From an uncultured Bacteroidota bacterium (lineage in GTDB: Bacteria; Bacteroidota; Bacteroidia; Chitinophagales; Chitinophagaceae): a stretch of DNA of 64,000 nucleotides. The translations under genes and the position numbers were made by a program. The stretch is taken from positions 1 to 64,000 of the forward strand of contig CAIVKC010000036.1 of NCBI GenBank assembly GCA_903906365.1. The letters run 5' to 3'. The notes beneath the pieces are model-generated. The model saw only the letters and a program-made list of their open reading frames with translations. It did not search any database and was not told where the DNA came from. Positions 16,152-36,344 of this stretch are shown one piece after another. The first letter of the stretch is position 1. Each line of letters opens with the position of its first letter.

Positions 16152-17261
16152 ATGAAAAAGAAATCGCTAAACTTCCGGGCTTTGTTGTCTGCCGGAGCGC
16201 TTTTCCTGGCCATCGGTTTTTCCGCCTGCAACGGCGGGGGAACTTCCGGTGAATCCAAGTCAGACAGCACCAAGTCGGCCAGCGATGACAACGCACTGAT
16301 CGGAGCCGGCAGCTCCTTTGACAACCCGTTGTTCTCAAAAATGTTTTCCGAGTACAACAAACTCAATGGACTCAAAGTGAATTACCAGTCGGTTGGTTCA
16401 GGCGCAGGGATTTCCCAGCTCACCAACAAGACCGTTGATTTCGGAGCTTCCGATGCCCCCATGAACGGAAAGCAGGATTCGGCCGTATCCGCCCCCGTGC
16501 TGCACATTCCCGTTACCGCCGGAGCCGTGGTACTCAGCTATAACCTCGCTGAGGTAAAGGATACCCTGAAACTCACCCCTTCGGTGCTGGCTGACATTTT
16601 TTTGGGAAAGATCACCAAATGGAATGATGCCAAAATCGCAGCCATCAACAAAGGCGTTAAGCTGCCCGATGTGGCCATCCTCATTGCCCACCGCTCCGAC
16701 GGCAGTGGCACCTCCAACATTTTCACGACCTATTTAAGCAAGGTCAGCGAAGAATGGAGCTCCAAAGTAGGTAAAGGCTCCAGCGTAAACTGGCCAGTAG
16801 GCCTGGGCGGGAAGGGCAACGAAGGAGTTGCCGGACTGATCAAACAAACCCCCGGAGCCATCGGCTACATTGAACTGGCTTATGCCATTCAGAATAACAT
16901 GGCTTATGCCCAGATTCAAAACAAGGCGGGCCGTTTCATTACCCCCAGCATTGCTTCGGTAACAGCTGCAGCCAATATCACCATTCCGGCTGATTCCAAA
17001 GTATCACTGACCAATACGGATGCCGCTGACGGTTATCCCATCTCCGGATTCTCCTGGGTACTGATCTATAAGGAGCAGAAATATGGCGACCGCAACCAGG
17101 ACCGTGCTACCAAGCTGCTCAAATTGCTTTCCTGGGTTATTCATGACGGCCAGCAGTTCAGTGGTGCCCTCAATTATGCACCCCTGTCCCCGGCTGCCGT
17201 AACGACGGGAGACGCTATCCTGAAATCAGCCACCTTTGATGGCAAACCGATATTGCAATAA
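16152..17261 (+). CDS. pstS: Phosphate ABC transporter substrate-binding lipoprotein
   Basis: Periplasmic phosphate receptor, 369 aa. A lipobox (GFSAC, Cys at about residue 26) marks it as a lipoprotein, followed by a Ser/Thr/Asp linker. Phosphate-contact motifs are visible: GAGSSFDNPLF near the mature N-terminus, VGSGAGISQL, DFGASDAPM and RSDGSGTSNIFTTYL. It delivers phosphate to PstCA. It is second in the porin-pstSCAB-phoU operon and 17 bp before pstC. Confidence 0.95.
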   Translation: MKKKSLNFRALLSAGALFLAIGFSACNGGGTSGESKSDSTKSASDDNALIGAGSSFDNPLFSKMFSEYNKLNGLKVNYQSVGSGAGISQLTNKTVDFGASDAPMNGKQDSAVSAPVLHIPVTAGAVVLSYNLAEVKDTLKLTPSVLADIFLGKITKWNDAKIAAINKGVKLPDVAILIAHRSDGSGTSNIFTTYLSKVSEEWSSKVGKGSSVNWPVGLGGKGNEGVAGLIKQTPGAIGYIELAYAIQNNMAYAQIQNKAGRFITPSIASVTAAANITIPADSKVSLTNTDAADGYPISGFSWVLIYKEQKYGDRNQDRATKLLKLLSWVIHDGQQFSGALNYAPLSPAAVTTGDAILKSATFDGKPILQ

Positions 17262-17278
17262 ACAGCAATCAACATACC

Positions 17279-18271
17279 ATGGATACTTCCTCAATGGATA
17301 AAGACCTCATTACCCTCAGCAATGCTTCGCTGGGGGTAATTAGTCCTGTCAAGACGGCGGACTCTTTAAAAATCCGCCAACGCCTCAGGCGCTCCTACCG
17401 GCAGATTAAGACTGAAAATGTATTCCGCCGGGTGCTGGTGCTGATGGGCTGGGTCATGGTAGTACTGGTACTGGGTATCCTTTTTACCCTGGTTCTGGAG
17501 TCGGTCCCTTCCATACGCGCCCTGGGGGCCGGTTATCTGTGGGGCAAGACCTGGGACCCGGTGCAGGATGTATACGGGGCCTATCCCTTCCTGCTGGGAA
17601 CCCTGCTGACTTCTTTTTTAGCCCTTATTATTTCCATACCCTTCTCTATAGCGGTGGCCATTTTCCTGGGAGAATACTATCCGGAAGGCTGGCTGCCCAA
17701 CCTGCTGAAAAACACCGTGGAACTGATTGCCGCCGTACCATCTGTCATCTATGGTTTTTGGGGACTGGCCGTACTGGTGCCCATTGTCCGTGGATGGGAA
17801 ACCAAACTCGGGGTACAACCCGTGGGTGTGGGCATTCTGAGTTCTTCGCTGATTCTGGCAGTCATGATCATTCCCTATGCCGCTTCACTGGGGCGCTCCA
17901 TGATCCAGATGGTGCCTTCCCCACTTAAGGAAGCGGCTTATTCGCTGGGCGCTACCCGCTGGGAGGTCATACGCAGCGTAATCATTCCCTACACCAAATC
18001 GGGTTTGTTTGCCGGTATCCTGCTTTCCCTGGGCCGCGCCCTGGGGGAGACCATGGCCGTAACGATGGTGATTGGAAATACCAGCATCATTCCGAAAAAT
18101 ATTTTTTCACCGGGCAATACCATGGCTTCCGTGATAGCCAATGAATTCACCGAGGCTGATAAACCCGTGTATCTTTCCGCCCTCATCGAACTGGGACTGG
18201 TCCTTTTCCTGGTCACTGTTGTCATCAATATGATCGGAAAAAGGGTGATCAGCCGGTTCACAAATGAATAA
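17279..18271 (+). CDS. pstC: Phosphate ABC transporter permease PstC
   Basis: Inner-membrane permease of 330 aa with a cytoplasmic N-terminal tail of about 50 residues and six hydrophobic helices. The EAA coupling loop reads EAAYSLGATRWEVIRSVIIP (residues about 218-237), the contact point for PstB. The GRALGETMAVTMVIGN motif is the PstC signature. It forms the channel with PstA; the two genes are 3 bp apart. Confidence 0.95.
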   Translation: MDTSSMDKDLITLSNASLGVISPVKTADSLKIRQRLRRSYRQIKTENVFRRVLVLMGWVMVVLVLGILFTLVLESVPSIRALGAGYLWGKTWDPVQDVYGAYPFLLGTLLTSFLALIISIPFSIAVAIFLGEYYPEGWLPNLLKNTVELIAAVPSVIYGFWGLAVLVPIVRGWETKLGVQPVGVGILSSSLILAVMIIPYAASLGRSMIQMVPSPLKEAAYSLGATRWEVIRSVIIPYTKSGLFAGILLSLGRALGETMAVTMVIGNTSIIPKNIFSPGNTMASVIANEFTEADKPVYLSALIELGLVLFLVTVVINMIGKRVISRFTNE

Positions 18272-18274
18272 ACC

Positions 18275-19123
18275 ATGACCCCTAGCAACATTAAATACCG
18301 AATTGGCAAGAGCCGGGGTTTTCAGGTCCTTACCATCACCCTCGCCTTTGCCTGCGTGATTCCCCTGCTGGCCATCCTTGGTTTCATCATAGAGGCCGGC
18401 ATTACCAAAATCAACTGGCATTTCCTGGTCAATGTGCCCAAACCGGTGGGTGAAACCGGCGGTGGGATAGCCAATGCCCTGCTGGGTACGCTGATCATCA
18501 TCTTAGTGGCTGCCCTTATAGCCATACCCATCGGGATACTTTGCGGGGTTTACTTAAGCGAAAATAAAAAAAGCAGGCTGGCCTACTGGAGCCGGCTTTG
18601 TGTGGATATCCTGCAGGGGGTACCCTCCATTGTGGTGGGTATAGTAGCCTACTTCTGGCTGGTCAAACCCCTGGGCGGATTCTCTGCGCTCTCCGGCAGT
18701 GTCGCCCTGGCCATTATGATGCTGCCCATCGTTATCCGCTCCACGGAGGAGACCCTCAAACTCTTACCCGATACCCTGAAGGAAGCTGCTTTTGCCCTGG
18801 GTATGCCCTTTCACCGGGTGATTCTCAAAGTGATCATTCCATGCGGGATCAGCGGTATTCTCTCCGGAGTCATGCTTTCCATCGCCCGGGTGGCCGGTGA
18901 AACAGCTCCGCTGCTTTTTACCGCCTTTGGCAATCCCTATCTGTCGGCCAACCTGACCAAACCGATGCAAAGTCTGCCGCTGTTGATTTTCAATTATGCA
19001 ACCAGCCCCTACAACGACTGGCATGACCTGGCCTGGGGCGCTTCCCTGATTCTGCTGGTTTTCGTTTTGATGCTCAATATCTTCACCAAGCTGATAACAA
19101 GAAAATGGAAAGTACAATTATAA
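18275..19123 (+). CDS. pstA: Phosphate ABC transporter permease PstA
   Basis: Second permease subunit, 282 aa, six predicted transmembrane helices. The coupling loop is EAAFALGMPFHRVILKVIIP (residues about 169-188) and the ARVAGETAPLLFTAFGN motif is diagnostic of PstA. Its last 19 bases overlap the start of pstB, which suggests coupled translation of permease and ATPase. Confidence 0.95.
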   Translation: MTPSNIKYRIGKSRGFQVLTITLAFACVIPLLAILGFIIEAGITKINWHFLVNVPKPVGETGGGIANALLGTLIIILVAALIAIPIGILCGVYLSENKKSRLAYWSRLCVDILQGVPSIVVGIVAYFWLVKPLGGFSALSGSVALAIMMLPIVIRSTEETLKLLPDTLKEAAFALGMPFHRVILKVIIPCGISGILSGVMLSIARVAGETAPLLFTAFGNPYLSANLTKPMQSLPLLIFNYATSPYNDWHDLAWGASLILLVFVLMLNIFTKLITRKWKVQL

Positions 19124-19863
19124 AATCGATAGACTATAATGCCTATTTCGGCGACAACCATGTTGTCAAGAACGTGAACATTGAGATACCCAAAAACCAT
19201 GTCATCGCGGTGATGGGTCCTTCCGGATGCGGTAAGACCACCTTTCTCAGGGGCATTAACCGCATGCATGAACTCATTCCCAATGCCACTGCCAAGGGCA
19301 AGATCCTGCTCAACAACGAAGACGTCATGGAAATGCATCCCATCTTCGTACGGCTGAAAATAGGCATGGTTTTCCAGCGCCCCAACCCCTTTCCCAACCT
19401 GAGCATTTATGATAACGTCATCGCGGGGTATAAACTCAACGGAATCAAACTGCCCAAAGCGGAAAAAGACCAGATCGTGGAGGAATCCCTGACCAAGGTC
19501 GCCCTCTGGAAAGAAGTAAAGGACTCCCTCACTAAAAAAGGCTCCTTCCTTTCCGGCGGCCAGCAGCAGCGCCTGTGCATCGCCAGGGCCGTGGCCATGC
19601 AGCCGGAGGTCCTGCTCTTTGACGAACCCACTTCGGCACTCGACCCCATTTCCACCTCAACGGTAGAGGAACTCTTTCATGAACTCAAAAAGAATTATAC
19701 CCTGATCATCGTGACCCATAACATGCAGCAGGCTGCCAGGGTCAGCGACAGGACCGCTTTTTTTTATGTAGGGGAGCTGGTCGAATATGATGACACCAAA
19801 AGGATGTTCACCAATCCGCGCGACATCCGCACACAGAACTATATTACAGGCAGGTTTAGTTAA
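19105..19863 (+). CDS. pstB: Phosphate ABC transporter ATPase PstB
   Basis: Cytoplasmic ATPase of 252 aa that powers PstSCA. Walker A is GPSGCGKTT (residues about 35-43), the signature is LSGGQQQRLCIARA, Walker B is VLLFDEPTSALDP, and the switch His is in IVTHNMQQA. The ATG at 19105 lies inside the end of pstA; homology starts right there, which supports this overlapping start. Confidence 0.96.
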   Translation: MESTIIKSIDYNAYFGDNHVVKNVNIEIPKNHVIAVMGPSGCGKTTFLRGINRMHELIPNATAKGKILLNNEDVMEMHPIFVRLKIGMVFQRPNPFPNLSIYDNVIAGYKLNGIKLPKAEKDQIVEESLTKVALWKEVKDSLTKKGSFLSGGQQQRLCIARAVAMQPEVLLFDEPTSALDPISTSTVEELFHELKKNYTLIIVTHNMQQAARVSDRTAFFYVGELVEYDDTKRMFTNPRDIRTQNYITGRFS

Positions 19864-19894
19864 TACTCACATTGAATCATTTTAATTTTACGGT

Positions 19895-20557
19895 ATGACA
19901 CAGTTAGAAACAGAATTATTGCTCCTCAAAAAGGAAGTCATCAATATGTGGAACCTGGTTCGCAGCCAGTTGGAAAAGGCAAGGGCTTCCATGGTGGACT
20001 TTGACAAGGACCTGGCCAGGGAAGTGCTGCTCAAGGAAAGAAGGGTCAACGGGGCCGAACTGAAAATCGACCGGGATTGTGAGAATATATTTGCCCTGCT
20101 TACGCCGGTTGCCGTGGATCTGCGTTTCGTGCTGGCGGTGCTGAAGATCAACTCCAACCTGGAAAGAATCGGGGATATCGCCGAAGGCATCGCCAAATAT
20201 ATGCTCAGCGCGGAAAAAGCATTCAAAAAAGAGCTGCTGGAAGAAACCCATGTCATGAAGATGTTTGATGAATCCATCATCATACTGGAGGATACACTGG
20301 CTGCTTTTGAGAACGAGGATACCCTGCTGGCCCGGCAGGTATTTAAAAAGGACGAAACCCTGGATGACATCAACCAGCGTGCCAATGAACTCATTGAAGC
20401 ATACCTTTCAGGACATCCCGAAGACCTGGACCAGGCCCTCTATATATTGTCCATCATCCGCAAACTGGAGCGGGTAGGGGACCAGTCCAAAAATATTTCC
20501 GAGGAGATCATATTTTACCTGGAAGCCAAAGTGCTCAAGCACAAGCACTCACATTAG
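19895..20557 (+). CDS. phoU: Phosphate signalling protein PhoU
   Basis: 220 aa, two PhoU three-helix bundles with the E/DxxxD metal-cluster motifs, for example NLERIGDIAEGIAKYM (residues about 88-103) and KLERVGDQSKNISEEI (about 189-204). PhoU links PstSCAB transport state to the PhoR kinase and dampens the Pho response when phosphate is abundant. It ends the porin-pst operon, just before two terminator-like hairpins. A PhoR/PhoB-like pair lies 14 kb downstream. Confidence 0.95.
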   Translation: MTQLETELLLLKKEVINMWNLVRSQLEKARASMVDFDKDLAREVLLKERRVNGAELKIDRDCENIFALLTPVAVDLRFVLAVLKINSNLERIGDIAEGIAKYMLSAEKAFKKELLEETHVMKMFDESIIILEDTLAAFENEDTLLARQVFKKDETLDDINQRANELIEAYLSGHPEDLDQALYILSIIRKLERVGDQSKNISEEIIFYLEAKVLKHKHSH

Positions 20558-22906: not shown

Positions 22907-25900
22907 ATGAGTACAAGAATTACCCTTCACAAAGGGGTAATGGCAATACTTGTTGTGTTGTTGTTACCGTTTTTCGCCCTGGCCCAAAAAGTAATCACCG
23001 GTCAGGTGCTTTCCAAAACAGACCAGTCCCCGGTAGCCGGCGCTTCTGTTGCCGTTAAAGGAACCAAACTGGGAGTAGCTACTTCCATCGACGGATTCTT
23101 TACCATCAAAGCCAAACAGGGCGATATCCTCATTATATCCGGTGTAGGTATCGTTAAGCAGGAAGTTCCGGTCGGCGAAGAGTCGAACCTGCATATCTCG
23201 GTTGCCGCGGACGCCAAGAATCTCAATGAGATCGTGGTAACCGCAACAGGTATTAAAAAGGAAGCCAAGCGCCTGGGTTATGCCGTGCAGACCATTGATG
23301 CATCCACGCTGACCCTGGCCAGGGAAGCAGATCCGGTCAATTCCCTGAAAGGCAATGCAGCCGGACTGGCCGTAAACGTCAATTCCGAAATCGGCCACGC
23401 ACCCGATGTGATCATCCGCGGCGAGAACGATCCCAACGACCGCCCCATGTTTGTGGTGGATGGGGTTTCCATCAGTTCCGATACCTATAATATCAATCCC
23501 GATGACATTGAGACCATTACTGTTTTGAAAGGTCCCAATGCCGCCGCTTTATATGGCTTTCAGGGAAAAAACGGGGCCATCATCATTTCCACCAAGAAGG
23601 GCACCAAGGATAAAAGAGGACTTCTCATCACCCTCAATTCAAGTACACAGTTTAATAAAGGGTTTATTGCACTTCCCAAATACCAGGACACCTACGGACC
23701 TGGTGATAACGGTCAGTATGCCTTTGGCGGCGGTGGATCCAGCCCCCAAAGCTATTTCGGCAGCGGCGCAGTCGGTGTTGGTAACAACGACTATGACTAT
23801 GATGTGTGGGGACCTCAGTTCAGGGGACAGCTTCTGCCCCAGTACGATGGTGCCTTTGACCCTACCAAGACCTATATTACCACCTATGCTGACGGCAGCA
23901 AGTACTCCGGTCACGTGGCTCCGACGCCCTGGGTGGCAAGAGGTAAGGACAACCTGAGGAAATTCATTCAGACCGGTTTGCTTTCTTCCAACAGTCTCTC
24001 GGTGAGCTCTTCTTCTGAAAAGACGGATATCCGCTTTTCCATGGGAAATATCTATCAGAAAGGCATTGTTCCCAACACCCAGTTGAACAATGGCAACTTT
24101 ACAGGAAGCATCGTGCAGCGTTTCAACAGCAAACTTACGCTGACCAGTTATTTTAATTACAGCCGTCAGTCGACACCCAATGTACCGGATGTGAATTACG
24201 GTCCCAACAGCATCATCTACAATATCATCATTTGGGGTGGTGCTGACTGGGCCATGAAGGATATGCGTAATTACTGGCAGCCAGGAAAAGTGGGTCTCCA
24301 GCAAAAGTATGAGGAGTTCTACCGCTATAACAACCCCTATTTCATGTCCTACGAATGGCTGAGGGGTCACTACCAGAACAATGAATATGGTTATCTGTCA
24401 TTGAATTACAAAATAAATTCCGACCTGGATGTACAGTTCAGGCCAAGCCTGACTGCCTATGACATGTTCAATTCGGAGAAAATGCCTTATTCTGCGGGTG
24501 TATACGGCAGACCCCTTCGCCAGGGAGATTACCGCGAAGACAGGCGCTCCCTGTTTGAATCAAATGAAGATCTGCAGGTTCGCTACCATAAAAACCAGCT
24601 CTTCGGATTCCTTGATCTGCAGGCCCTCGGCGGCGGATCAGCCAGGAATTTCAATTTCAGTTCCAATTTTGAGTCCACCAACTACCTGAATACCCCCGGA
24701 ATCTATTCTTTTTCCAATTCACTCAATCCCCTGACGGGAAGCAGCTACCATTCCAGCATGCTGGTATTGAGCGCTTATTATTCAGTGGACCTGGGGTATA
24801 AGTCTTATTTGAACGCCAACATCACCGGCCGTGTGGATAAATCCTCCGCATTGCCTGCCAATGGCAACAGCTATTTTTATCCCTCTTTCAACCTGTCTAC
24901 CGTAGTTTCTGACTACGTCAACCTGCCTAAAGTGATTTCCTTCCTTAAATTCAGGGGATCCTATGCAGAAAGCAAGAGTGGTGGTACCAATGCCTTCTTT
25001 TCACCGAATGTCAGCGCAACACCGGCCGGCGGTTACGGATATACCTGGAACTCCCCCTATGGAGGTCCGAGCTATCAGTTCTCTCAGCCATATAATTTAG
25101 TGTCCACCTATACCAACCAGATTGGTAGCAGCGCGGTCTACACAGACCAGACCGTAGCCACCAGAATCCAGACAGCTGACAGACAGTCTACTGAATTCGG
25201 TGCCGATATCCGTTTATTTGCCAACAAACTGGGCCTGGACGTAACCCATTATCATTATAAGAATACCGGTATCGTAAACAAGGGTACTTCGCCCGCCTCC
25301 GGTTACTCTTCCTACCTGACCAACGGTAATACCTATACCAATGACGGATGGGAAGTGGTGCTGAATGCCCGCCCGATCAATCATCCCGGCGGATTCAACT
25401 GGAATGTAATTGCCAATTTTTCCACCTATGTCAGGAAATGGGTCAATGATGCCAATCCCAACAATTACGAAAATAACGGCAAAAGAGTCGACCTCGTCTA
25501 TGGCAATGCTTTTGTAAGAACACCGGACGGCAAAATGGTCATTGACCAGACTTCCGGTTTATATTCCCGCTTTTCCGACCTTGGTTCTTCTGCCCAAAAA
25601 GTCTTTGGGCACGCAGATCCCGACTGGCAGTGGGGTGTTGTCAACAATTTCAGCTATAAGAATTTTGTGCTGCGCTTCCAGTTTGACGGATTGGTCGGAG
25701 GCGTAATGGAAGACTATGTAAGAAAGAAGACCCTGCAGGGCGGACGTCACATCGAAAGTGCCGAAGGTGCCTTTGGTATCGCCAGGCCTTCAGATGAGGC
25801 CAATGTGGCAGCCTATACCGGAAACGGGGTTAACCTGACCGGCGGCTCCATCAACCTGGACCCGCTCACCGGAGTGATTACCAATTTCAAAAGCCTGTCG

Positions 25901-26218
25901 GAGTCGCAAAACTCCACCAAGAGCCAGGTGCAGCCATTTGTTACCCGCATGGCCTCCATTCCTGACCTGGACATCATCAAGAAAACTTACGTAAAACTGA
26001 GGGAAGTCGCCATTACCTATAATATTCCCGAGAATGTATTTGGCAAAAAATCCTTTTTTCAAAAGGCCAGCGTTTCCCTTGTCGGCAGGAACCTGCTCTA
26101 TTTTTTCCCCAACCGCTACAAGGATGTGGATGTGGACCAGTATACCCAGGACGGCGGTTCTGGCTTGCAGACCCCCACGACCCGCAGTTATGGCTTTAAC
26201 GTAAATATTTCTTTCTAA
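22907..26218 (+). CDS. SusC/RagA-family TonB-dependent outer-membrane transporter
   Basis: 1103 aa. Signal peptide to about residue 26 (FFALAQ), then a CarboxypepD_reg-like domain (about 30-105, ITGQVLSKTDQSPVAGASV), a plug domain (about 110-230, with NEIVVTATG and DVIIRGENDPNDRPMFVVDGV) and a 22-strand barrel ending in Phe (YGFNVNISF). It forms the channel beneath the SusD lid and uses TonB energy. A Pho box promoter and the neighbouring phosphonate operon suggest a phosphorus-containing ligand rather than a glycan, although most SusC proteins move glycans. The SusD partner follows after 20 bp. Confidence 0.92.
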   Translation: MSTRITLHKGVMAILVVLLLPFFALAQKVITGQVLSKTDQSPVAGASVAVKGTKLGVATSIDGFFTIKAKQGDILIISGVGIVKQEVPVGEESNLHISVAADAKNLNEIVVTATGIKKEAKRLGYAVQTIDASTLTLAREADPVNSLKGNAAGLAVNVNSEIGHAPDVIIRGENDPNDRPMFVVDGVSISSDTYNINPDDIETITVLKGPNAAALYGFQGKNGAIIISTKKGTKDKRGLLITLNSSTQFNKGFIALPKYQDTYGPGDNGQYAFGGGGSSPQSYFGSGAVGVGNNDYDYDVWGPQFRGQLLPQYDGAFDPTKTYITTYADGSKYSGHVAPTPWVARGKDNLRKFIQTGLLSSNSLSVSSSSEKTDIRFSMGNIYQKGIVPNTQLNNGNFTGSIVQRFNSKLTLTSYFNYSRQSTPNVPDVNYGPNSIIYNIIIWGGADWAMKDMRNYWQPGKVGLQQKYEEFYRYNNPYFMSYEWLRGHYQNNEYGYLSLNYKINSDLDVQFRPSLTAYDMFNSEKMPYSAGVYGRPLRQGDYREDRRSLFESNEDLQVRYHKNQLFGFLDLQALGGGSARNFNFSSNFESTNYLNTPGIYSFSNSLNPLTGSSYHSSMLVLSAYYSVDLGYKSYLNANITGRVDKSSALPANGNSYFYPSFNLSTVVSDYVNLPKVISFLKFRGSYAESKSGGTNAFFSPNVSATPAGGYGYTWNSPYGGPSYQFSQPYNLVSTYTNQIGSSAVYTDQTVATRIQTADRQSTEFGADIRLFANKLGLDVTHYHYKNTGIVNKGTSPASGYSSYLTNGNTYTNDGWEVVLNARPINHPGGFNWNVIANFSTYVRKWVNDANPNNYENNGKRVDLVYGNAFVRTPDGKMVIDQTSGLYSRFSDLGSSAQKVFGHADPDWQWGVVNNFSYKNFVLRFQFDGLVGGVMEDYVRKKTLQGGRHIESAEGAFGIARPSDEANVAAYTGNGVNLTGGSINLDPLTGVITNFKSLSESQNSTKSQVQPFVTRMASIPDLDIIKKTYVKLREVAITYNIPENVFGKKSFFQKASVSLVGRNLLYFFPNRYKDVDVDQYTQDGGSGLQTPTTRSYGFNVNISF

Positions 26219-26238: not shown

Positions 26239-27873
26239 ATGAAACAGATTAAATATATATTCTTACTGGTTGCGGCAGGGTTCCTGATGACCTCCTGCAA
26301 CAAACAGATTCAGCAGAAACAAACCGACCCCAATAACCCAACCAGTGTACCCCCTTCGCTGATATTGGGAAACCTCCTGGCTGATATGGCAGGACAGGGC
26401 ACGGGCGGTGATTTGGGCGGCGTGAATTCTTGGAGCAATGTCCACCGCTGGAACCAGTATCATTGCAGTAATTATGATTATTACGATAATAATATTTACT
26501 CCTGGACCAACGGTTCATTTGATCCCTATCTGGTAGTTAAAAATGTCATGCAAATGGAAAAGGAAGCCGCTCTCAGAGGCGCTTCCAGTGTGAATCCCTA
26601 TGAAGCCGTCGGCCGCTTCATCCAGGCTTATTATTACTATAACCTGACTTCCCTTTTTGGGGATGTGCCCCTGGCCCAGGCCGAGCAAGCGACCTTGAAT
26701 CCCAAACCGGCCTATACCCCACAGGAGCAGGTATTCGCCTATGTGCTTAACCAGCTGGATACCGCCAACACCCACCTGGCAGCCCTGATTGCCAACAATG
26801 ACAATTCATTGTCAGCCTCCCAGGACCTCTATTACCAGGGCGACCTGGTCAGGTGGCAGAAACTGGTCAACTCCTTTAAACTCAGGGTGCTGGTCAGCCT
26901 GAGCAGTAAGGCATCCGATGCCCTACTGAATGTTCCCGCCCAGTTCGCCGCCATTGTGGGCAATCCTTCCAAATATCCCGTTTTCACCAACGCCCCTGAT
27001 TCGAAATTCCCTGGGGCCCAGTTTGATGATTTCAAATACAATTACGACGGCACCTACGTGCAATACTATTTTAATCCAAGTAATTTCGGATCCATTGCTG
27101 CCCGTTTCAATATGGCTTCCACCTATGTAAGCGCACTGACCAGCCTAAACGACGCGCGGGTTTTCGTCACCTGTGAGCCAGCATGGGCGCTGGTGGGAGC
27201 TGACCCTGTACCTGCCCAGTATAAATATTTTGCAGGTGCCAGCACCGGTGAACCTCTTTCCACCATGTATGGAAATGCAAATGCCGGACTGTATTCCTTT
27301 ATTAACCGTCGCAGGTACTACAACAATTTTACCGGTGAACCGGATGTACTGGTGGGCTATAAGGAAATGTGTTTTAACATCGCAGAAGGGATAACCCGCG
27401 GCTGGGCTTCCGGAAATGCAGAATCCTACTATAAGGCAGGAATCGCAGCATCCATGGCTTTTTACGGTATTGACACTTCAAAAACCAGCTTTACCGCTTA
27501 TTTCCTGCCTCCCGGAGCAAACTCCGTAGCACAGGTTGCGCCTTATCCGTTTAGTTTCAGCTTTTCCAGTTATTACGCGCAGCCAACCGTTGCCCTGTCA
27601 TCGGCACAGCCTGATGCCATCAACCAGATTGTGCTTCAGAAATACCTGGCCTGTTTTGAGAATTCCGGGTATGAAGGATATTACAATTACCGCAGGACCG
27701 GCATTCCTGCCTTTCAGGGAGGCAGTGGGGTAGGCAACAACGGACTGGTTCCCAAAAGATGGGCTTACCCTGTGTCTGAACAGGTTCAGAATACCACCAA
27801 TTGGAAGGCCGCCATTTCCGCACAACAGTTTTCTGCCGATGATCTTAACCAGAGCATGTGGATTTTAAAGTAA
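26239..27873 (+). CDS. SusD-like (SusD-like_2) outer-membrane lipoprotein
   Basis: 544 aa surface lipoprotein, lipobox LMTSC with Cys at about residue 20. The early TDPNNPTSVPPSLILGNLLADM-type segment in the first 55 residues and the TPR-like helices are typical of the SusD-like_2 branch, which is shorter in conserved motifs than classic SusD. It should cap the SusC barrel and bind the ligand. It is followed by a strong terminator, so the SusCD transcript ends here. Confidence 0.9.
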   Translation: MKQIKYIFLLVAAGFLMTSCNKQIQQKQTDPNNPTSVPPSLILGNLLADMAGQGTGGDLGGVNSWSNVHRWNQYHCSNYDYYDNNIYSWTNGSFDPYLVVKNVMQMEKEAALRGASSVNPYEAVGRFIQAYYYYNLTSLFGDVPLAQAEQATLNPKPAYTPQEQVFAYVLNQLDTANTHLAALIANNDNSLSASQDLYYQGDLVRWQKLVNSFKLRVLVSLSSKASDALLNVPAQFAAIVGNPSKYPVFTNAPDSKFPGAQFDDFKYNYDGTYVQYYFNPSNFGSIAARFNMASTYVSALTSLNDARVFVTCEPAWALVGADPVPAQYKYFAGASTGEPLSTMYGNANAGLYSFINRRRYYNNFTGEPDVLVGYKEMCFNIAEGITRGWASGNAESYYKAGIAASMAFYGIDTSKTSFTAYFLPPGANSVAQVAPYPFSFSFSSYYAQPTVALSSAQPDAINQIVLQKYLACFENSGYEGYYNYRRTGIPAFQGGSGVGNNGLVPKRWAYPVSEQVQNTTNWKAAISAQQFSADDLNQSMWILK

Positions 27874-27922
27874 TCAATATTGAAACGCTTATAGCATAAA
27901 AAGCAATTTAGTAAGGATGTTA

Positions 27923-27965
27923 AATACAGGGCGAATCTTTTCGGGATTTCGCCCTGTATTTTTTT
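27923..27965 (+). terminator. Strong intrinsic terminator after SusD
   Basis: A perfect 13-bp stem, AATACAGGGCGAA paired with TTCGCCCTGTATT, encloses a 12-base loop and runs into a T-rich tract. It separates SusC/SusD from the alkaline-phosphatase/PhnZ-like operon, which must therefore have its own promoter or depend on read-through. Confidence 0.85.
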
Positions 27966-28013
27966 CCCTTCAGTTTTTATAATGGTTTTCAGTATCCTTT
28001 CAATTGGAAGTAT

Positions 28014-29129
28014 ATGCCCAAGTTAGGTTGGTTTTCTGTCAGGGTCTTCAGAAGCGGGATCATCCTTTGCGGGGTGCTGGCTGGCTGCTTGCCCCCTGTC
28101 AGGGCACAACGTCACAAAACCGAGAACCTGATTATAGTAACCCTGGACGGCATGCGCTGGCAGGAGGTGTTTGGCGGGGCTGATTCTGCCCTGTTACATA
28201 ACCCGAAGTATACCCGGAATATAGGCGAGGTTCAAAAAAAATTCTGGCGGGAAGATGTAGGCCAGAGAAGGGCCCTGCTGTTTCCCTTCATTTGGCAGGT
28301 CATGGAAACCAGCGGACAGCTATACGGCAACCGAAACGTCGGCAGCCTGGTGGATAATGCCAATCCTTATAAAATTTCCTATCCGGGCTATAACGAACTG
28401 TTTACCGGATATCCGGATTCCTTGGTGCGATCCAACAGTAAGATCCCAAATAAAAACACCAATGTACTGGAGTACATTGACCACCAGGAAGGTTACCAGG
28501 GAAGGGTGGCCGCCTTTAGTTCCTGGGACGCATCCCCCTATTTTCTCAATAAATGGCGCAGCGGGCTCTATGTAAACGCAGACCAGGACTCCATTGATTT
28601 TGGCACGGCTACCTCCGTACTGATCCATGATATTCAGCGGCTTTCCATGAAACCTAATGGTGAAAGGCTCGATGTTCTTACTTATATTGCAGCCAGGGAA
28701 TACCTGAAGGCCCGCAGGCCCAAAGTACTGTATATCTCCTTTGATGAAACCGATGAATTTGCCCATCAGGGAAACTATGATGCCTACCTGGCGGCGGCCC
28801 ATGCCCTGGACGGTATGCTGGCCGATATCTGGAATACAGTGCAGTCCCTGCGGGAATACAGGGGAAAGACCACCCTGCTGGTCACCTGTGATCATGGAAG
28901 GGGTGACCGGATAAAGGACCAGTGGAGGGACCATGGGCAGCGCATTGAGGACGCGGGGCAATTGTGGGTGGCCGTTATGGGACCTGATTCACCGCCCCTG
29001 GGTGAAGTCAGTGTAAAAACTGTCCTCTATCAAAAACAGATTGCCCCGACACTGGCTGCCCTGCTCGGGTTGCATTTTGTGCCGGACCGGGGAGAAGCCT
29101 TACCCATTTCAACCATCATTCACCCATAA
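28014..29129 (+). CDS. Alkaline-phosphatase-superfamily hydrolase (phosphodiesterase or phosphonate hydrolase-like), exported
   Basis: 371 aa. An N-terminal hydrophobic segment with LAGC (Cys about 25) looks like a lipoprotein or Sec signal. Metal and nucleophile motifs follow the NPP/PhnA pattern: VTLDGMRWQ (Asp45), YKISYPGYNELFTGYP with a probable Ser122 nucleophile, SFDETDEFAHQGNY (Asp244, His251), CDHGRGD (Asp293, His294) and DHGQ (His307). It would hydrolyse a phosphate or phosphonate ester outside the inner membrane. It is the first gene of a four-gene operon with the PhnZ-like oxygenase 12 bp on. It might release an aminophosphonate from a lipid or glycan; the substrate is inferred. 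Confidence 0.8.
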   Translation: MPKLGWFSVRVFRSGIILCGVLAGCLPPVRAQRHKTENLIIVTLDGMRWQEVFGGADSALLHNPKYTRNIGEVQKKFWREDVGQRRALLFPFIWQVMETSGQLYGNRNVGSLVDNANPYKISYPGYNELFTGYPDSLVRSNSKIPNKNTNVLEYIDHQEGYQGRVAAFSSWDASPYFLNKWRSGLYVNADQDSIDFGTATSVLIHDIQRLSMKPNGERLDVLTYIAAREYLKARRPKVLYISFDETDEFAHQGNYDAYLAAAHALDGMLADIWNTVQSLREYRGKTTLLVTCDHGRGDRIKDQWRDHGQRIEDAGQLWVAVMGPDSPPLGEVSVKTVLYQKQIAPTLAALLGLHFVPDRGEALPISTIIHP

Positions 29130-29141
29130 ATTTAATTATAC

Positions 29142-29714
29142 ATGACAACCCAACAGGCCGCCGGTATCACAGAAGAAATCATGCATTTTTACGAACAGCA
29201 CGGCGGCGAGGAATACGCCGGAGAGAAGGTAACCCAGCTCGAACATATGGTGCAGGCAGCGGAACTTGCCCAGGAACAGGGCTTTGACCAGGAAGTCATC
29301 CTGGCCGCCTTCCTCCATGACATTGGGCATATCTGTGAGGAGGGTAGGGGTGTCAATGAAATGGATGGATACGGCATCCGCGATCATGAGCAAATCGGGG
29401 CGGATTTTTTAAAAAGCCGCGGATTTTCCAAAAAAGTGATCCGGCTGGTGGAATCCCATGTGGAAGCCAAAAGATACCTGACCCTGAAGGATCCGGCTTA
29501 TTATGACCAGCTCTCCGATGCCAGTAAGAAAACACTGGAGTACCAGGGCGGCCGTATGGCAGCCGAAGAAGCCGCAGCCTTTGAGCAATACCCGCTGTTC
29601 AGCCTGATTATCCAGATGCGCAAATGGGATGAGCAGGCCAAGATCGAGCACAAGGCCCTGCCTGACCTGCAGGCCTACCGCAATATGATCTACCAGCACC
29701 TGATATCCCAGTAG
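29142..29714 (+). CDS. PhnZ-like HD-domain mixed-valence diiron oxygenase
   Basis: 190 aa. HD-domain protein whose ligand set fits PhnZ/TmpB rather than a hydrolase: His35 (TQLEHMVQ), His59-Asp60 and His64 (FLHDIGH), His82 (RDHEQIG), His106 (SHVEAKRYL) with Lys110, and Asp163 (RKWDEQ). The YAGE segment (Tyr25, Glu28) corresponds to the substrate-lid Tyr/Glu of PhnZ. PhnZ cleaves the C-P bond of 2-amino-1-hydroxyethylphosphonate with O2, giving glycine and phosphate; TmpB does the same with the trimethylated analogue. The flanking phosphonate-type genes support a C-P cleaving role. Residue equivalences are from memory. Confidence 0.82.
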   Translation: MTTQQAAGITEEIMHFYEQHGGEEYAGEKVTQLEHMVQAAELAQEQGFDQEVILAAFLHDIGHICEEGRGVNEMDGYGIRDHEQIGADFLKSRGFSKKVIRLVESHVEAKRYLTLKDPAYYDQLSDASKKTLEYQGGRMAAEEAAAFEQYPLFSLIIQMRKWDEQAKIEHKALPDLQAYRNMIYQHLISQ

Positions 29715-29767
29715 GTTTTTCCATTCACCCAAACCATCAGACGGGAGATCCCCGCCAGTCACCAGGC

Positions 29768-31051
29768 ATGAACAAACAAGCAGTTATCCCCTACAAACAG
29801 AACCAGATGCTGGTGGCCCTGTATGCGGCCGTCATTACCTTTCTGACCTATGCCACCGTATACGGATTCCGCAAGGGGTTTACGGTCTGCACCTTCAGCG
29901 GAATGAGCTTTGCCGGCATCGGTTACAAGACCTGGCTGGTGATAAGCCAGGTGCTTGGATATACCTGCAGCAAGATTTACGGCATCCGCTTCATCGCCGA
30001 ACTAAAAAGACTGGGCCGCGGTAAACTGATCCTGCTGCTTACCGGCGTTTCCTGGTTTGCGCTCCTGCTGTTTGCCATCATACCCGCCCCGTACAATATT
30101 GTCTTCATGTTCATCAACGGTTTTCCGCTGGGCATGATCTGGGGCGTCGTTTTTTCCTATGTGGAAGGACGCAAGGCCACCGATTTTATCGGGGCTGCCT
30201 TATCGGTCAGTTTTATCTTTTCTTCCGGATTTGTCAAAACGGTGGCCGAGCGGCTGCGCATCAGTTTTGAGCTGAGTGAATTCTGGGTTCCCTTCGTGGC
30301 AGGCCTTGCCTTCGCCATCCCGCTGGTGCTATTTGTATACCTGCTCGAAAAGATCCCGGCCCCTTCTGCCGAAGATGAGTCCCTGCGGAGCACCCGTGTG
30401 CCGATGATGAAGGAAAAACGGCGGGAATTTGTACGCCTTTTTCTTCCGGGCCTGGTGGCAGCCATTTCCATCTATGTTTTCTCCACCCTTTTCCGCGATA
30501 TCAGGGATAATTTCCTGGCCGACATGTGGAAGGAAATGGGATATGTAAACCAGCCTTCCCTGTTTACCAAGACTGAAACCCCGACGACCATCATCATCCT
30601 GGTGCTGATCAGCAGCATGATCCTGATACGGAACAATTTCAAGGCCCTCATGGTAGCCCATTATTTCATATTGCTGGGCTTTATCATTACCGGCATCAGT
30701 TCCTACCTTTTTGTACAGCACCGGCTCTCCCCGGTATGGTGGATTACCCTGGTTGGCCTGGGGCTTTACATGACTTATATCCCCTTTAACTGCGTGTTTT
30801 TCGACCGGCTCATCTCGGCTTTCAAATATGCGGGCAATGTGGGTTTTCTGATCTATGTGGCTGATTCCTTTGGCTACTTCGGCTCCGTCGGGGTGCTGGT
30901 CACCAAGGAAATCCTGCACGTTAAGCTGCAGTGGACGGCGTTTTATTCCCAGGGTGTCATTGTTTTATCAGTGGTCGGTATCCTGGGTACCATCCTCTCC
31001 CTGACCTATTTTTCCAGAAAGTACCATAAAATGATCGAATTTCATGAATAA
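29768..31051 (+). CDS. DUF5690 (MFS-like) inner-membrane transporter
   Basis: 427 aa with about twelve hydrophobic segments and no signal peptide. The sequence resembles the DUF5690 family, a Bacteroidetes branch of the major facilitator superfamily; YGFRKGF at about residues 33-39 and NGFPLGMIWG at about 118-127 are notable charged or glycine motifs. It overlaps the following FAD oxidoreductase by 8 bp and follows the PhnZ-like gene by 53 bp, so it most likely imports the substrate of that pathway. The specific ligand cannot be read from sequence. Confidence 0.75.
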   Translation: MNKQAVIPYKQNQMLVALYAAVITFLTYATVYGFRKGFTVCTFSGMSFAGIGYKTWLVISQVLGYTCSKIYGIRFIAELKRLGRGKLILLLTGVSWFALLLFAIIPAPYNIVFMFINGFPLGMIWGVVFSYVEGRKATDFIGAALSVSFIFSSGFVKTVAERLRISFELSEFWVPFVAGLAFAIPLVLFVYLLEKIPAPSAEDESLRSTRVPMMKEKRREFVRLFLPGLVAAISIYVFSTLFRDIRDNFLADMWKEMGYVNQPSLFTKTETPTTIIILVLISSMILIRNNFKALMVAHYFILLGFIITGISSYLFVQHRLSPVWWITLVGLGLYMTYIPFNCVFFDRLISAFKYAGNVGFLIYVADSFGYFGSVGVLVTKEILHVKLQWTAFYSQGVIVLSVVGILGTILSLTYFSRKYHKMIEFHE

Positions 31052-32174
31052 GCAAACCGCTATTGTAATCGGCGCCGGTATTGTCGGACTGGCCACGGCC
31101 AGGGCCCTGGCAAAAAGGGGGTATGCAGTGACTGTCATCGAGCGTACCCAGAAGGCAGTGGGTGCCTCCGTCAGGAATTTCGGTATGGTCTGGCCCATTG
31201 GCCAGCCCGCCGGTACACTTTACAACAGGGCCATGCGCAGCCGGGAGATATGGCTGGAAGTTGCCCGGGCCGGGGATATTTGGGCAGACCCGGTAGGAAG
31301 CCTGCACCTGGCCTATAATACCGATGAGTGGAAGGTGCTGGAGGAGCTTCATCAGATCTTCTGTAAGGAAGGCCGGAGTGTGGCCTTACTGCAACCCGGG
31401 GAAGTGCTGGAAAGGTCTCCGGCCGCATTAAAACAAGGACTGTTGGGCGGGCTTTTCAGTGCCGATGAGGTGATTGTGGATCCCCGCCAGGCGATTGCCG
31501 CCCTGCCGGGCTACCTGACCCGGGAATTTGGCGTGACCTTTCACTGGGGTAAATGCGTCTCCTATATTGCAGACCAGACCGCCTATATTGGAAATGAGGA
31601 GGAGCATGAAGCGGACCTGATCGTGGTGTGCAGCGGGGCTGATTTTGAAACCCTGTACCCCGAATATTTTGCCAGCCTGCCCATTACCAAATGCAAGCTG
31701 CAGATGATGCGCATGGTTGCCCAGCCGGATGAATGGCGCATGGGTCCTGCACTCTGCGGCGGACTTTCACTGATTCACTACAACAGTTTCAAGGCGGCCC
31801 CCTCCCTGGCGGAACTTAAAAAAAGGTATGAGCTGCAAATGCCCGACTACCTGGAATGGGGCATTCACGTGATGGTCTCACAGAACGGCATGGGAGAGCT
31901 TACCATCGGGGACTCCCATGAATACGGCCTGACCCATGAACCTTTTGACCGTGCGGTCATCAATAATATGATTCTTTTCTACCTGGAAAAAATGGCCGCT
32001 TTTCAGGATCCCCGGCTGATCGAAACCTGGAATGGCATCTATCCCAAGCTGACTGACGGCCAGACCGAGGTCTTTTTCTCCCCCGAGCAGGGCGTCCATA
32101 TTCTCAACGGACTCGGAGGGGCCGGCATGACCCTTTCCTTTGGCCTGGCTGAAGAACTGGTGGCTACCCTTTGA
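31044..32174 (+). CDS. FAD-dependent oxidoreductase, phosphonate-associated (TIGR03364-like)
   Basis: 376 aa DAO-superfamily flavoenzyme. The FAD-binding motif is VIGAGIVGLATA (residues about 8-19). The next conserved block, GASVRNFGMVWPIGQPAG (about 42-59), is what I recall from the TIGR03364 clade, which co-occurs with phosphonate genes and is thought to oxidise an aminophosphonate or its N-methyl form. The C-terminal LNGLGGAGMTLSFGLAEEL is the usual second FAD contact. It is the last gene of the four-gene operon and its start overlaps the transporter stop. Possible job: N-demethylation or deamination of the imported aminophosphonate. Confidence 0.78.
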   Translation: MNKQTAIVIGAGIVGLATARALAKRGYAVTVIERTQKAVGASVRNFGMVWPIGQPAGTLYNRAMRSREIWLEVARAGDIWADPVGSLHLAYNTDEWKVLEELHQIFCKEGRSVALLQPGEVLERSPAALKQGLLGGLFSADEVIVDPRQAIAALPGYLTREFGVTFHWGKCVSYIADQTAYIGNEEEHEADLIVVCSGADFETLYPEYFASLPITKCKLQMMRMVAQPDEWRMGPALCGGLSLIHYNSFKAAPSLAELKKRYELQMPDYLEWGIHVMVSQNGMGELTIGDSHEYGLTHEPFDRAVINNMILFYLEKMAAFQDPRLIETWNGIYPKLTDGQTEVFFSPEQGVHILNGLGGAGMTLSFGLAEELVATL

Positions 32175-32254: not shown

Positions 32255-32905
32255 ATGGAAAAACTCTCTGTAACCTTAAGCCGGAACCGTCCTTATTTTA
32301 CCGGTTACCTGATACTGCTCCTCTCCGGGCTGGTCCTGTTGTTATGCACCTCCAAAGAGCAGAGCTTTTTGATGCTCAATCCCTACCATGGCCTGCTGCT
32401 GGACTGGTTTTTCATCATTTATACCAATGTGGGTGACGGCCTGTTTTCGGTGGCCATCTTCCTGGTATTGTTATACCTGCGCAAACCCCTTGCGGCCTGG
32501 GAAATCATTTTTACCTTCCTGCTTTCCGGGCTGGTCGCCCAGGTGCTTAAGAATTTTTTTCCGATGCCAAGACCCAAAACCCTGCTGGAACACAGCGGTT
32601 ATCCCTATTTTCTGGAAGGAATTACCCATGTGGGGCATGCCTCTTTCCCTTCCGGCCATTCCGCCTCCGCCTTTGGCCTGGCCACGATCCTGACCCTGTA
32701 TAGCAGGGATAAAAGACGCGGCCTGCTTTACCTGGCTGCTGCCGCGGCCGTGGCTTATTCCCGGGTTTACCTCGGACAGCATTTCCTCCAGGATGTGCTG
32801 GCGGGATCCTGCATCGGGACCATATGTGCCTTGAGCGTATACTTCCTGATCCAGGGGCAGTCCTCCTGGTTTGCCAAAATGAAAGCAGCCGACCAGTCCT
32901 TATAA
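32255..32905 (+). CDS. PAP2-family membrane phosphatase
   Basis: 216 aa with six hydrophobic segments. The three catalytic motifs of PAP2 enzymes are present in order: KNFFPMPRP (Lys, Arg), FPSGHSAS and SRVYLGQHFLQDV (Arg, His, Asp). Such enzymes remove phosphate from lipids such as phosphatidic acid, undecaprenyl diphosphate or lipid A. It is 21 bp before a GT39 glycosyltransferase, and the pair suggests lipid-linked sugar or lipid A modification, though it might also serve phosphorus recovery in this island. Confidence 0.88.
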   Translation: MEKLSVTLSRNRPYFTGYLILLLSGLVLLLCTSKEQSFLMLNPYHGLLLDWFFIIYTNVGDGLFSVAIFLVLLYLRKPLAAWEIIFTFLLSGLVAQVLKNFFPMPRPKTLLEHSGYPYFLEGITHVGHASFPSGHSASAFGLATILTLYSRDKRRGLLYLAAAAAVAYSRVYLGQHFLQDVLAGSCIGTICALSVYFLIQGQSSWFAKMKAADQSL

Positions 32906-34512: not shown

Positions 34513-35562
34513 TTAATCTCTTTTGGCCTCCAGGGTAAAACCAATGGTGGTTCCCACATCCGGGGTGCTTCTGACATGAATGCGCTGTTCGTGCGCCTCG
34601 ATGATATGCTTACAAATGGCCAGGCCCAGGCCGGTGCCGCCACGGTCACGGCTGCGCGCTGCATCGGTGCGGTAGAACCGCTCGAAAATGCGTGAGAGGT
34701 GTTCTTCCTCGATGCCGATGCCATCGTCACTGACTTCCACCAGGACATGACTATCGTCAGTTTTATAGACGCTTGCCATGATGGAACCGTTATTCCTGCC
34801 GTATTTGCAGGCGTTTTCCACCAGGTTGGTCAGCACCATGCGGATCTTTTCCTTGTCGGCAAAAACGGTGATCGGCGATTCACATCCCTTTTTGATAAAG
34901 GGCTTGATGTCTTTTTCTGCAGCCTTGATGGAAAGGGATTCGAAGACCTCCCGGATCAGATCCTGGATCACGAAATTTTGTTTGTAGAGCAGCTGTTCGC
35001 CGCGCTCCAGCCGGGAGATCTCGTCTAGGTCATTCATCAGGTTGACCAGCCGGTCCACATTCTTGGACGTATTTTCCAGGAATTTCTTACTGACCACCGG
35101 GTCCTCCATGGCACCCCCCAGCAGGGTATCGATATAGCCCTGTATGGAAAAGATGGGTGTTTTGAATTCGTGGGCCAGGTTTTGCAGGAACTCCTTGCGA
35201 TAGGCCTCGTTCCTTTTGAGGACTTCAATTTCCTCATTTCTTTTCTCCCCCCATTTTTCCACATCCTCCCTCACCTCATCGATACTTTTCTGGGGGAGTA
35301 TGTATTTGAAATATACTTCTTCTTTTTTGGTGGCCTTGGTCTGGTGAATGAGTTTATAGATCAGTTTGATCTTCCGGTAGATGAACCTTTCCAGGGTAAA
35401 CAGGATCAGGGCGTAGCTGATGGCAAAGGTGACCAGCCAGGAACAAAGGCTGACCAGCCAGCTGCCCGTCAAAATAAAGGCCCCCAGGAAGACCGGGACC
35501 GACAGCACGGCCGCCGTGGAGGCTGACAATTGTTTGGGTGATAGGCTTTTGGTCGAAAACAT
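34513..35562 (-). CDS. phoR: PhoR-like sensor histidine kinase
   Basis: 349 aa. Two closely spaced transmembrane helices (about residues 17-57) leave almost no periplasmic domain. A helical linker leads to the H-box LAHEFKTPIFSIQGY (His131), the N-box NLVENACKYG and ATP-lid motifs VSDDGIGIEE and GGTGLGLAICK. A kinase without an extracellular sensor is expected if it reads phosphate through PstSCAB-PhoU, as PhoR does. It is 101 bp downstream of the PhoB-like gene. The name is by family likeness and island context. Confidence 0.8.
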   Translation of the reverse strand: MFSTKSLSPKQLSASTAAVLSVPVFLGAFILTGSWLVSLCSWLVTFAISYALILFTLERFIYRKIKLIYKLIHQTKATKKEEVYFKYILPQKSIDEVREDVEKWGEKRNEEIEVLKRNEAYRKEFLQNLAHEFKTPIFSIQGYIDTLLGGAMEDPVVSKKFLENTSKNVDRLVNLMNDLDEISRLERGEQLLYKQNFVIQDLIREVFESLSIKAAEKDIKPFIKKGCESPITVFADKEKIRMVLTNLVENACKYGRNNGSIMASVYKTDDSHVLVEVSDDGIGIEEEHLSRIFERFYRTDAARSRDRGGTGLGLAICKHIIEAHEQRIHVRSTPDVGTTIGFTLEAKRD

Positions 35563-35663: not shown

Positions 35664-36344
35664 TTACAAATCAAACTTATAACCCACCCCCTTGATGGTG
35701 GTGATACAATCCAGGTCGAGTTTCTGACGGACCTTGCGTATATGCACATCGATGGTGCGGTCTCCGACAATTACATCGTTGCCCCAGACCTGGTTGAGGA
35801 TTTCGTTTCTTAAAAAGACCCGGCCGGGGCGGGAGGCCAGCAGGTACAGGAGCTCAAATTCCTTTTTGGCCAGGGTTATATCCTTGTCATTGACGGTGAC
35901 CTCAAATTTATCGGGGTCAATGGTGAGGTTCTCGATTCTGAGGGCCTTGCCTTCCGGCTCCTTACTGGTCCGGCGGAACAGGGCGTTGACCCGGCTGATC
36001 AGGACCTTGGGGCTGATGGGCTTGGTGACATAATCGTCGGCACCCATTTCAAGTCCCTTGATGTGGTTGGTTTCATCATTGAGGGCGGTCAGAAATATGA
36101 TGAGTGTATCCTTAAATGCCTGCTGCGACCGAAGGACTTCACAGACCTCAATACCGCTTTTTTTAGGCATCATGATATCCAGGATGATCAGGTCCGGCCG
36201 CATGGATTTTGCCTTCACCAGGGCCTCATCCCCGTCCTTTGCCGTGGCCACTTCATATCCTTCTTTGACCAGGTTGTACTGGATGATCTCAAGAATATCC
36301 GGTTCATCGTCTGCGATCAATATTTTTTTGCCCTTGGACTCCAT
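35664..36344 (-). CDS. phoB: PhoB-like response regulator
   Basis: 226 aa, OmpR/PhoB type. Receiver domain at about 1-120 with acidic pocket Asp14-Asp15, phospho-acceptor in LIILDIMMPKKSG (Asp about 56) and the signal-relay Lys in YVTKPISP. The winged-helix DNA-binding domain occupies about 135-226, with LLASRPGRVFLRNEILNQVWG and a recognition helix ending RTIDVHIRKVRQKL. It is the obvious candidate to bind the three 11-bp-phased Pho box arrays in the window. First gene of the phoB-phoR pair. Confidence 0.82.
   Translation of the reverse strand: MESKGKKILIADDEPDILEIIQYNLVKEGYEVATAKDGDEALVKAKSMRPDLIILDIMMPKKSGIEVCEVLRSQQAFKDTLIIFLTALNDETNHIKGLEMGADDYVTKPISPKVLISRVNALFRRTSKEPEGKALRIENLTIDPDKFEVTVNDKDITLAKKEFELLYLLASRPGRVFLRNEILNQVWGNDVIVGDRTIDVHIRKVRQKLDLDCITTIKGVGYKFDL

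Follow-up and report, generated by a model that had tools for sequence, protein, structure and literature searches.

A predicted phosphonate utilisation locus of Bacteroidota that pairs a PbfD-type flavoenzyme with a PhnX-like hydrolase encoded elsewhere in the genome

The window analysed here is a stretch of 64,000 nucleotides on contig C36 of a Chitinophagaceae genome, G000, which is 99.94% complete and was also searched with protein profiles as a whole. Four open reading frames (ORFs) lie on its plus strand (28014-29129, 29142-29714, 29768-31051 and 31044-32174); intervals of 12 and 53 bp separate the first three, and the last two overlap by 8 bp. They encode an exported protein of the alkaline phosphatase (AP) superfamily, a PhnZ-type HD-domain protein, a DUF5690 membrane protein and a TIGR03364 flavoenzyme, and together they resemble a toolkit with which a soil bacterium would take phosphorus from natural phosphonates. 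An earlier reading made from the letters alone (the sequence-only reading) had described these ORFs as a module for organophosphonate uptake and C-P bond cleavage; its coordinates and spacing checked out, its gene names were mostly correct, and the module that it proposed is supported. Together with the two genes upstream, the locus comprises the following features.

22907..26218, plus strand: SusC/RagA-type TonB-dependent outer-membrane transporter, upstream partner (TIGR04056, 440 bits, cut-off 368.25)
26239..27873, plus strand: SusD-like outer-membrane lipoprotein (PF12771, E 8.5e-58)
28014..29129, plus strand: predicted exported AP-superfamily (NPP-like) phosphodiesterase or phosphonate-ester hydrolase (weak PF01663/PF01676)
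29142..29714, plus strand: predicted PhnZ-type HD-domain diiron oxygenase (PhnHD), optional accessory (TIGR03276)
29768..31051, plus strand: DUF5690 membrane protein of the major facilitator superfamily (MFS) fold, likely inner-membrane phosphonate importer (PF18943, E 2.9e-161)
31044..32174, plus strand: predicted TIGR03364/PbfD-type FAD-dependent aminophosphonate oxidase (435.8 bits, cut-off 285.1)

The flavoenzyme scores well over the cut-off of TIGR03364, the PbfD family. Tested members oxidise N-methyl-2-aminoethylphosphonate (N-methyl-AEP) and 2-aminoethylphosphonate (AEP) to phosphonoacetaldehyde (PAA), and some PbfD-type enzymes are reported to stand in for PhnW (PMC10590968). The best PhnW match in G000, a weak one at positions 4111-4410 of the window, reached 44.7 bits against 360.8 and was rejected; a genome lacking PhnW is what would be expected if the flavoenzyme replaced it. 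Profile scans of the window gave no PhyH, PhnJ or PhnX-like match and no PhnW or PhnA match above cut-off, in agreement with the sequence-only reading, which had found the oxygenase, phnW, phnX and C-P lyase genes all lacking there. No PhnJ was found anywhere in G000, and a C-P lyase route was rejected.

G000 does encode a PhnX-like HAD protein on contig C51 (C51:78382-79044), which matches TIGR03351 with 225.7 to 226.3 bits (cut-off 218.9) and has PhnX of Bacillus cereus as its best solved match. In an alignment of 60 HAD entries (57 distinct, the others being repeats), the C51 protein included, the equivalents of PhnX Asp12, Lys53, Arg160, Asp186 and Asp190 are kept in all 60 and that of His56 in none; the aligned structure 2ioh carries Arg at the Lys53 position. 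Judged by sequence, the expected phosphorus-releasing hydrolase is most likely not missing from this genome but encoded in trans on C51. Because G000 carries this protein, the module can be explained without the pre-hydroxylated substrate that the sequence-only reading had suggested; such a substrate remains the likeliest option when the HD protein is considered by itself. HADs of the C51 subtype were also located in other genomes: in G127, of the same genus, PhnW (487.9 bits, cut-off 400.8) is followed after 5 bp by a HAD with 59% identity to the C51 protein, in G019 one of this subtype adjoins PhnW, and in G096 one adjoins an MFS gene that matches PgtP best (179 bits, cut-off 408), with a similar neighbour recognised by eye in G060. 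PhnA was not found over its cut-off in G000, G035 or G127. A PhnA-like AP-superfamily protein is encoded in G000 at C38:82325-83347; at 169 bits, it is far under the PhnA cut-off of 407.55.

Co-occurrence was surveyed in 147 genomes of the same family, G000 included, in which the flavoenzyme was scored at E <= 1e-60 and the HAD at E <= 1e-25, the latter mostly under its curated cut-off. Genomes positive for the HD protein numbered 39, or 37 once two with weak TIGR03276 matches were dropped (G062 and G128, E 8.4e-4 and 3.3e-4); the flavoenzyme was found in 50 and the HAD in 48. The HAD accompanies the flavoenzyme in 47 of 50 genomes and occurs in 1 of the 97 others (Fisher p 1.3e-33, kinship ignored), and in that single genome, G048, part of a flavoenzyme gene stands where a contig ends. 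All three HAD-less flavoenzyme genomes (G008, G123 and G142) carry PhnA, with 499.7 to 505.3 bits, so that the flavoenzyme is associated at the level of the genome with a PAA-consuming C-P hydrolase throughout. PhnA is also present in G064 and G070, the two HD genomes that lack both the HAD and the flavoenzyme, so one or the other hydrolase is encoded in each of the 50 flavoenzyme genomes and in each of the 37 HD genomes. The HD protein itself occurs in 34 of the 50 flavoenzyme genomes, against 3 of the 97 others (p 9e-18, kinship ignored). From these counts, the core of the module is most likely the flavoenzyme, PAA and the HAD, with the HD protein optional.

The HD protein barely exceeds the TIGR03276 cut-off (215.5 against 214.6 bits), which is passed in 5 of the 147 family genomes. 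Its best solved relative is PhnZ (4mlm, E 1.1e-44), followed by TmpB (6npa); identities of 45% to the former and 42% to the latter do not single out one substrate within the PhnZ/TmpB group. The residues corresponding to the six iron ligands, the Tyr/Glu lid and the Lys, Ser and Arg of the substrate site are invariant in all 54 aligned HD sequences, which represent 54 of 55 loci, the window included (L146, a fragment only, was omitted). On sequence grounds the protein is a PhnZ-type diiron oxygenase, and the PhnZ-type active site described in the sequence-only reading is present across the alignment. The contrary proposal, that it is a common phosphohydrolase uninvolved in breaking C-P bonds, was rejected as extremely improbable: it belongs to the HD superfamily, and its metal motif is shared with some bimetallic hydrolases (PMC11203657), but PhnZ and TmpB were the sole solved relatives found, the lid and the Lys, Ser and Arg do not vary, and 36 of 37 family loci, L072 being the exception, have a flavoenzyme, a PhnX-like HAD or PhnA no more than 9.5 kb from the gene.

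Whether the HD protein is itself the C-P cleaving enzyme of the module is a separate matter. The sequence-only reading had assigned it this step, acting on a naturally pre-hydroxylated aminophosphonate such as 1-hydroxy-2-aminoethylphosphonate (HAEP) after the flavoenzyme had merely trimmed N-methyl or amino groups. The complete active site, the lack of a HAD within the cluster and the interval of just 12 bp between the AP and HD genes are all in keeping with that assignment. We nevertheless consider it unlikely, because specificity for (R)-alpha-hydroxyphosphonates is reported for PhnZ (PMC10574752) and the flavoenzyme family yields PAA, a compound outside that class (PMC10590968), because a HAD or PhnA is found in every flavoenzyme genome and the HD protein in only 34 of them, and because G127 retains SusCD, DUF5690 and the flavoenzyme without it.

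The arrangement of genes around the HD gene was surveyed within 9.5 kb in 37 family loci, the window included, and in 18 named loci (L007-L024) that extend beyond the family, some on short contigs and with possible overlap with the family genomes. Parts of the order recur, usually with a HAD inserted: SusC-SusD-AP-HD-HAD-DUF5690-FAD, where FAD denotes the flavoenzyme. Near the HD gene, the family loci contain DUF5690 (36), the flavoenzyme (33), SusD (33), AP (31), SusC (30) and HAD (28), and the named loci DUF5690 (8), the flavoenzyme (10), SusD (9), AP (4), SusC (10) and HAD (8). The HAD is placed between HD and DUF5690 in 27 of the 37. This interposed gene had been expected to be PhnY, which was rejected in favour of the PhnX-like HAD; two such in-cluster proteins of relatives scored 175.8 and 218 bits with TIGR03351, both below 218.9, and again had B. 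cereus PhnX as best solved match. Nine HD loci lack a nearby HAD, and their genomes carry either a HAD elsewhere (G000, G013, G019, G055, G060 and G096) or PhnA (G008, G064 and G070). Among G000, G035 and G127, which belong to one genus, the HD gene and the in-cluster HAD come and go, and each genome has a HAD.

Clusters without an adjacent HD gene were drawn from 17 loci anchored on the flavoenzyme in 17 genomes, one of which, L144, comes from G055, with HD elsewhere. The series SusCD-AP-HAD-DUF5690-FAD is found without HD beside it in L129 (G021) and L135 (G072), both from HD-less genomes, and in L144. Inspection by eye of the ORF lists of 14 clusters (13 without adjacent HD, of which L129, L135 and L144 were represented by a short stretch only, and L083 with HD) recognised no PbfA that might replace HD; no PbfA model was run. 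Conversely, in L057 and L060 (from G064 and G070), which lack the HAD and the flavoenzyme, and in the named locus L016, HD stands with PhnA, PAA dehydrogenase, PhnW and an FAD oxidoreductase of another kind. This second oxidoreductase is perhaps PbfB/C-like.

These loci bear on the proposal that the flavoenzyme feeds the HD protein, converting an alpha-hydroxy aminophosphonate to 1-hydroxy-phosphonoacetaldehyde, which HD would cleave to glyoxylate and phosphate in parallel to the HAD branch. That HpnW might supply the substrate of PhnHD is suggested in the Achromobacter study (PMC11203657). The co-occurrence of the two proteins, far over chance (34/50 against 3/97), fits this scheme, and the other FAD oxidoreductase means that a flavin partner for HD may persist in L057 and L060. 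We give the idea only a slim chance: HD occurs without TIGR03364 in G064 and G070, beside PhnA, PAA dehydrogenase and PhnW; 16 of the 50 flavoenzyme genomes do without HD; and we know of no enzyme that carries out the oxidation required. The HD protein probably serves as an optional accessory that handles alpha-hydroxylated phosphonates.

A PhnZ-type enzyme might also receive its substrate from a PhnY-type hydroxylase encoded in trans. G000 has five PhyH (PF05721) proteins, on C7, C21, C40, C41 and C60 and none on C36; those on C41 and C40 match the PhnY model with 54 and 48 bits, and the other three gave no match (one at E 1e-5, two at E 1e-10). The positive control was a contig of proteobacterial origin on which a phnZ-like and a phnY-like gene overlap (L022:1537-2875), and whose PhnY candidate scores 209 bits, itself under the PhnY cut-off of 500. 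The C41 protein is 27% identical to that candidate over 235 aa. It is found in 28 of the 147 family genomes at E < 1e-50 and, the only PhyH protein whose distribution was followed across genomes, is enriched with HD overall (14/37 against 14/110, p 0.0014). Among flavoenzyme genomes, however, it is unlinked to HD (13/34 against 5/16, p 0.44), and by eye no PhyH gene lies near a phosphonate gene. The low PhnY-model scores and this missing link make a hydroxylase in trans unlikely, slightly more so than supply by the flavoenzyme. By these scores no PhnY is recognisable in G000; the sequence-only reading had noted none in the window. The C41 protein (C41:180984-181865) adjoins, by eye, agmatine deiminase-like and amidohydrolase-like genes.

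For the supply of substrate, the roles of exported hydrolase and of MFS importer that the sequence-only reading gave to the AP enzyme and the DUF5690 protein are plausible. Residues D45, S122, D247, H251, D293, H294 and H307 of the AP enzyme do not vary among 45 aligned entries, of which 44 are distinct because the window protein was entered twice; by the NPP motif they would be the ligands of two metals and the Ser/Thr nucleophile. The closest solved profile matches are the NPPs 7mw8/2gsn (E 0.001-0.002). The structure model is poor (pLDDT 60), so its fold matches carry little weight. Assignment of this gene as PhnA was rejected, there being no TIGR02335 match at E 0.01 for it and none on C36. 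DUF5690 gave an AlphaFold2 model of pLDDT 83.6 with Foldseek and VIA-align matches to MFS proteins, G6PT included, and by this model it would be an MFS transporter; rows of the organophosphate:phosphate antiporter (OPA) family and of non-OPA MFS proteins were tied among the matches. A profile search of the PDB with DUF5690 gave no match at E 10, and a literature search for it found nothing. Near the cluster in other loci, exported proteins that by eye or weak model are phosphorus-ester enzymes recur, several in the slot before HD. They comprise large beta-propeller proteins in ten loci (L014, L019, L021, L058, L059, L061, L080, L081, L088 and L094) and, in a set made up of L012, L013, L059, L062 and L090, glycerophosphodiester-phosphodiesterase-like proteins (four loci) and an alkaline-phosphatase-like protein (L012).

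The wider surroundings, on which the sequence-only reading is silent, place the locus and its upstream SusC/SusD pair between a pst-phoU operon and a PhoR/PhoB-like pair.

16152..20557, plus strand: pstS-pstC-pstA-pstB-phoU phosphate uptake operon, context (each above an NCBIfam cut-off)
27924..27966, plus strand: hairpin and T run, possible terminator or attenuator, in the SusD-AP interval (RNA fold of 27915-27970, -26.3 kcal/mol)
32255..32905, plus strand: PAP2-family membrane phosphatase, doubtful cluster member (PF01569, E 2.5e-28)
34513-35562, minus strand: PhoR-like kinase (best PnpS 242.6, cut-off 400; PhoR 219.2, cut-off 334.2; both under)
35664-36344, minus strand: PhoB-like regulator (PhoB best model, 242.4 bits, under the cut-off of 296.2)

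Of the 37 family loci, the window included, 8 have a PhoR relative no farther than 9.5 kb from the HD gene; the count of zero for PstS merely reflects this limit of distance. The PAP2 gene neighbours HD in the closest relatives only: it was counted in 3 of the 37 family loci, again with the window, and in 7 of the 18 named ones. The hairpin is absent from a consensus terminator scan that permits loops of 3-8, and the promoter and terminator scans, which found 18 and 19 sites where shuffled sequence gave 11.2 and 13.1 on average, are too near chance to be used. An XRE-type regulator of ~190 aa adjoins the cluster in 21 of 54 loci, a count that rests on clustering of the neighbouring proteins; among the 14 of these that were listed it mostly lies directly upstream of susC, and it is a candidate for a cluster-specific regulator.

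Taken together, we think it likely that the locus serves phosphonate utilisation in Bacteroidota, with the flavoenzyme and a PhnX-like HAD as core, the HD protein optional, SusCD, the AP enzyme and DUF5690 as the supply line, and control by phosphate starvation. The activities, transport directions and regulation in this scheme are inferred from gene identities, residues, conservation and co-occurrence. The locus would probably be switched on by phosphate starvation; SusC and SusD would carry a phosphonate-bearing molecule over the outer membrane, the exported AP-superfamily enzyme would cut its ester bond to free an aminophosphonate headgroup, and DUF5690 would take the headgroup into the cell. 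There, the flavoenzyme would turn N-methyl-AEP and/or AEP into PAA, substituting for the absent PhnW, and the HAD, present in the cluster in most relatives and in trans on C51 here, would split the C-P bond. The HD protein would add the use of external alpha-hydroxylated aminophosphonates such as (R)-HAEP, and since these would arrive already hydroxylated, no PhnY would be needed. A more elaborate version is tentative, and we hold it with less than even confidence: SusCD would take up phosphonate-bearing glycans or lipids, an NPP-like exoenzyme would strip their headgroups, DUF5690 would be a founding family of phosphonate permeases, PbfD and HAD would cleave (N-methyl-)AEP, and the PhnY-free PhnZ homologue would scavenge (R)-HAEP from the environment as an oxygen-dependent counterpart of PbfA.

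Several observations weigh against the proposed route. The C51 HAD lacks equivalents of both His56 and Cys22 of PhnX, reaches 113.5 bits with the true phosphonatase model TIGR01422 (cut-off 220), and has neighbours with no phosphonate role evident by eye. HADs of the family exceed the TIGR03351 cut-off in only 10 of 147 genomes, and two HADs score weakly (132.5 bits in G059 and 121.8 bits in G128); PhnA was scored in eight genomes only; and because the genomes are related, the Fisher p values overstate independence. The AP enzyme, a putative phosphonate-ester hydrolase, has a weak sequence likeness to NPPs; the hairpin between SusD and AP may uncouple the SusCD transcript from the enzyme genes. 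HD still tracks the flavoenzyme (34/50 against 3/97), and may therefore be more than optional.

Parts of this arrangement are known from other bacteria. PMC11203657 describes the phosphonatase operon hpnW-phnSXUT of Achromobacter, close to which phnHD lies; this arrangement shares with the present system a TIGR03364 flavoenzyme replacing PhnW, a PhnX-kind C-P hydrolase and a TIGR03276 PhnHD, and the cluster description there likewise names no PhnY*. The same source states that PhnHD occurs without PhnY* in pseudomonads. As presented there, the Achromobacter operon has LysR control, phnSUT transport and PhnX itself, whereas the window has SusCD, an exported AP enzyme and DUF5690, and the PhnX-like TIGR03351 protein of G000 lies outside the cluster. 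PbfD-PhnX clusters, such as that of PbfD2 in Mariniblastus fucicola, have in common with the window locus a flavoenzyme that yields PAA in organisms without PhnW, followed by HAD hydrolysis; unlike in the window, no PhnZ-type protein, SusCD, AP enzyme or DUF5690 is named in the description of the PbfD-PhnX clusters in PMC10590968. In the PhnY*/PhnZ and TmpA/TmpB pathways (PMC10574752), the HD oxygenase belongs to the family of the window protein, shares its active-site residues and works with a 2-oxoglutarate hydroxylase, a partner that the window cluster lacks and that is not recognisable in G000. The PusCD phosphate systems of Flavobacterium (PMC8812569) likewise join a SusCD-like transporter to a phosphoesterase in a phosphorus cluster; the window locus differs in carrying aminophosphonate catabolic enzymes. 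HpnW/PhnX operons with a nearby PhnHD are thus already published, and our literature searches, judged by the titles and opening lines of abstracts that they listed, found no description of a phosphonate cluster with SusCD, an exported AP hydrolase and DUF5690.

The finding bears on what the Achromobacter authors call a "conundrum", the functions of HpnW and PhnHD, which they leave open (PMC11203657). Counting phnZ homologues as evidence of the oxidative PhnYZ pathway can mislead, and DUF5690 gains a testable role. In the sampled family, HpnW/PbfD always occurs with a PhnX-like or PhnA hydrolase (50/50), and PhnHD is separable from it.

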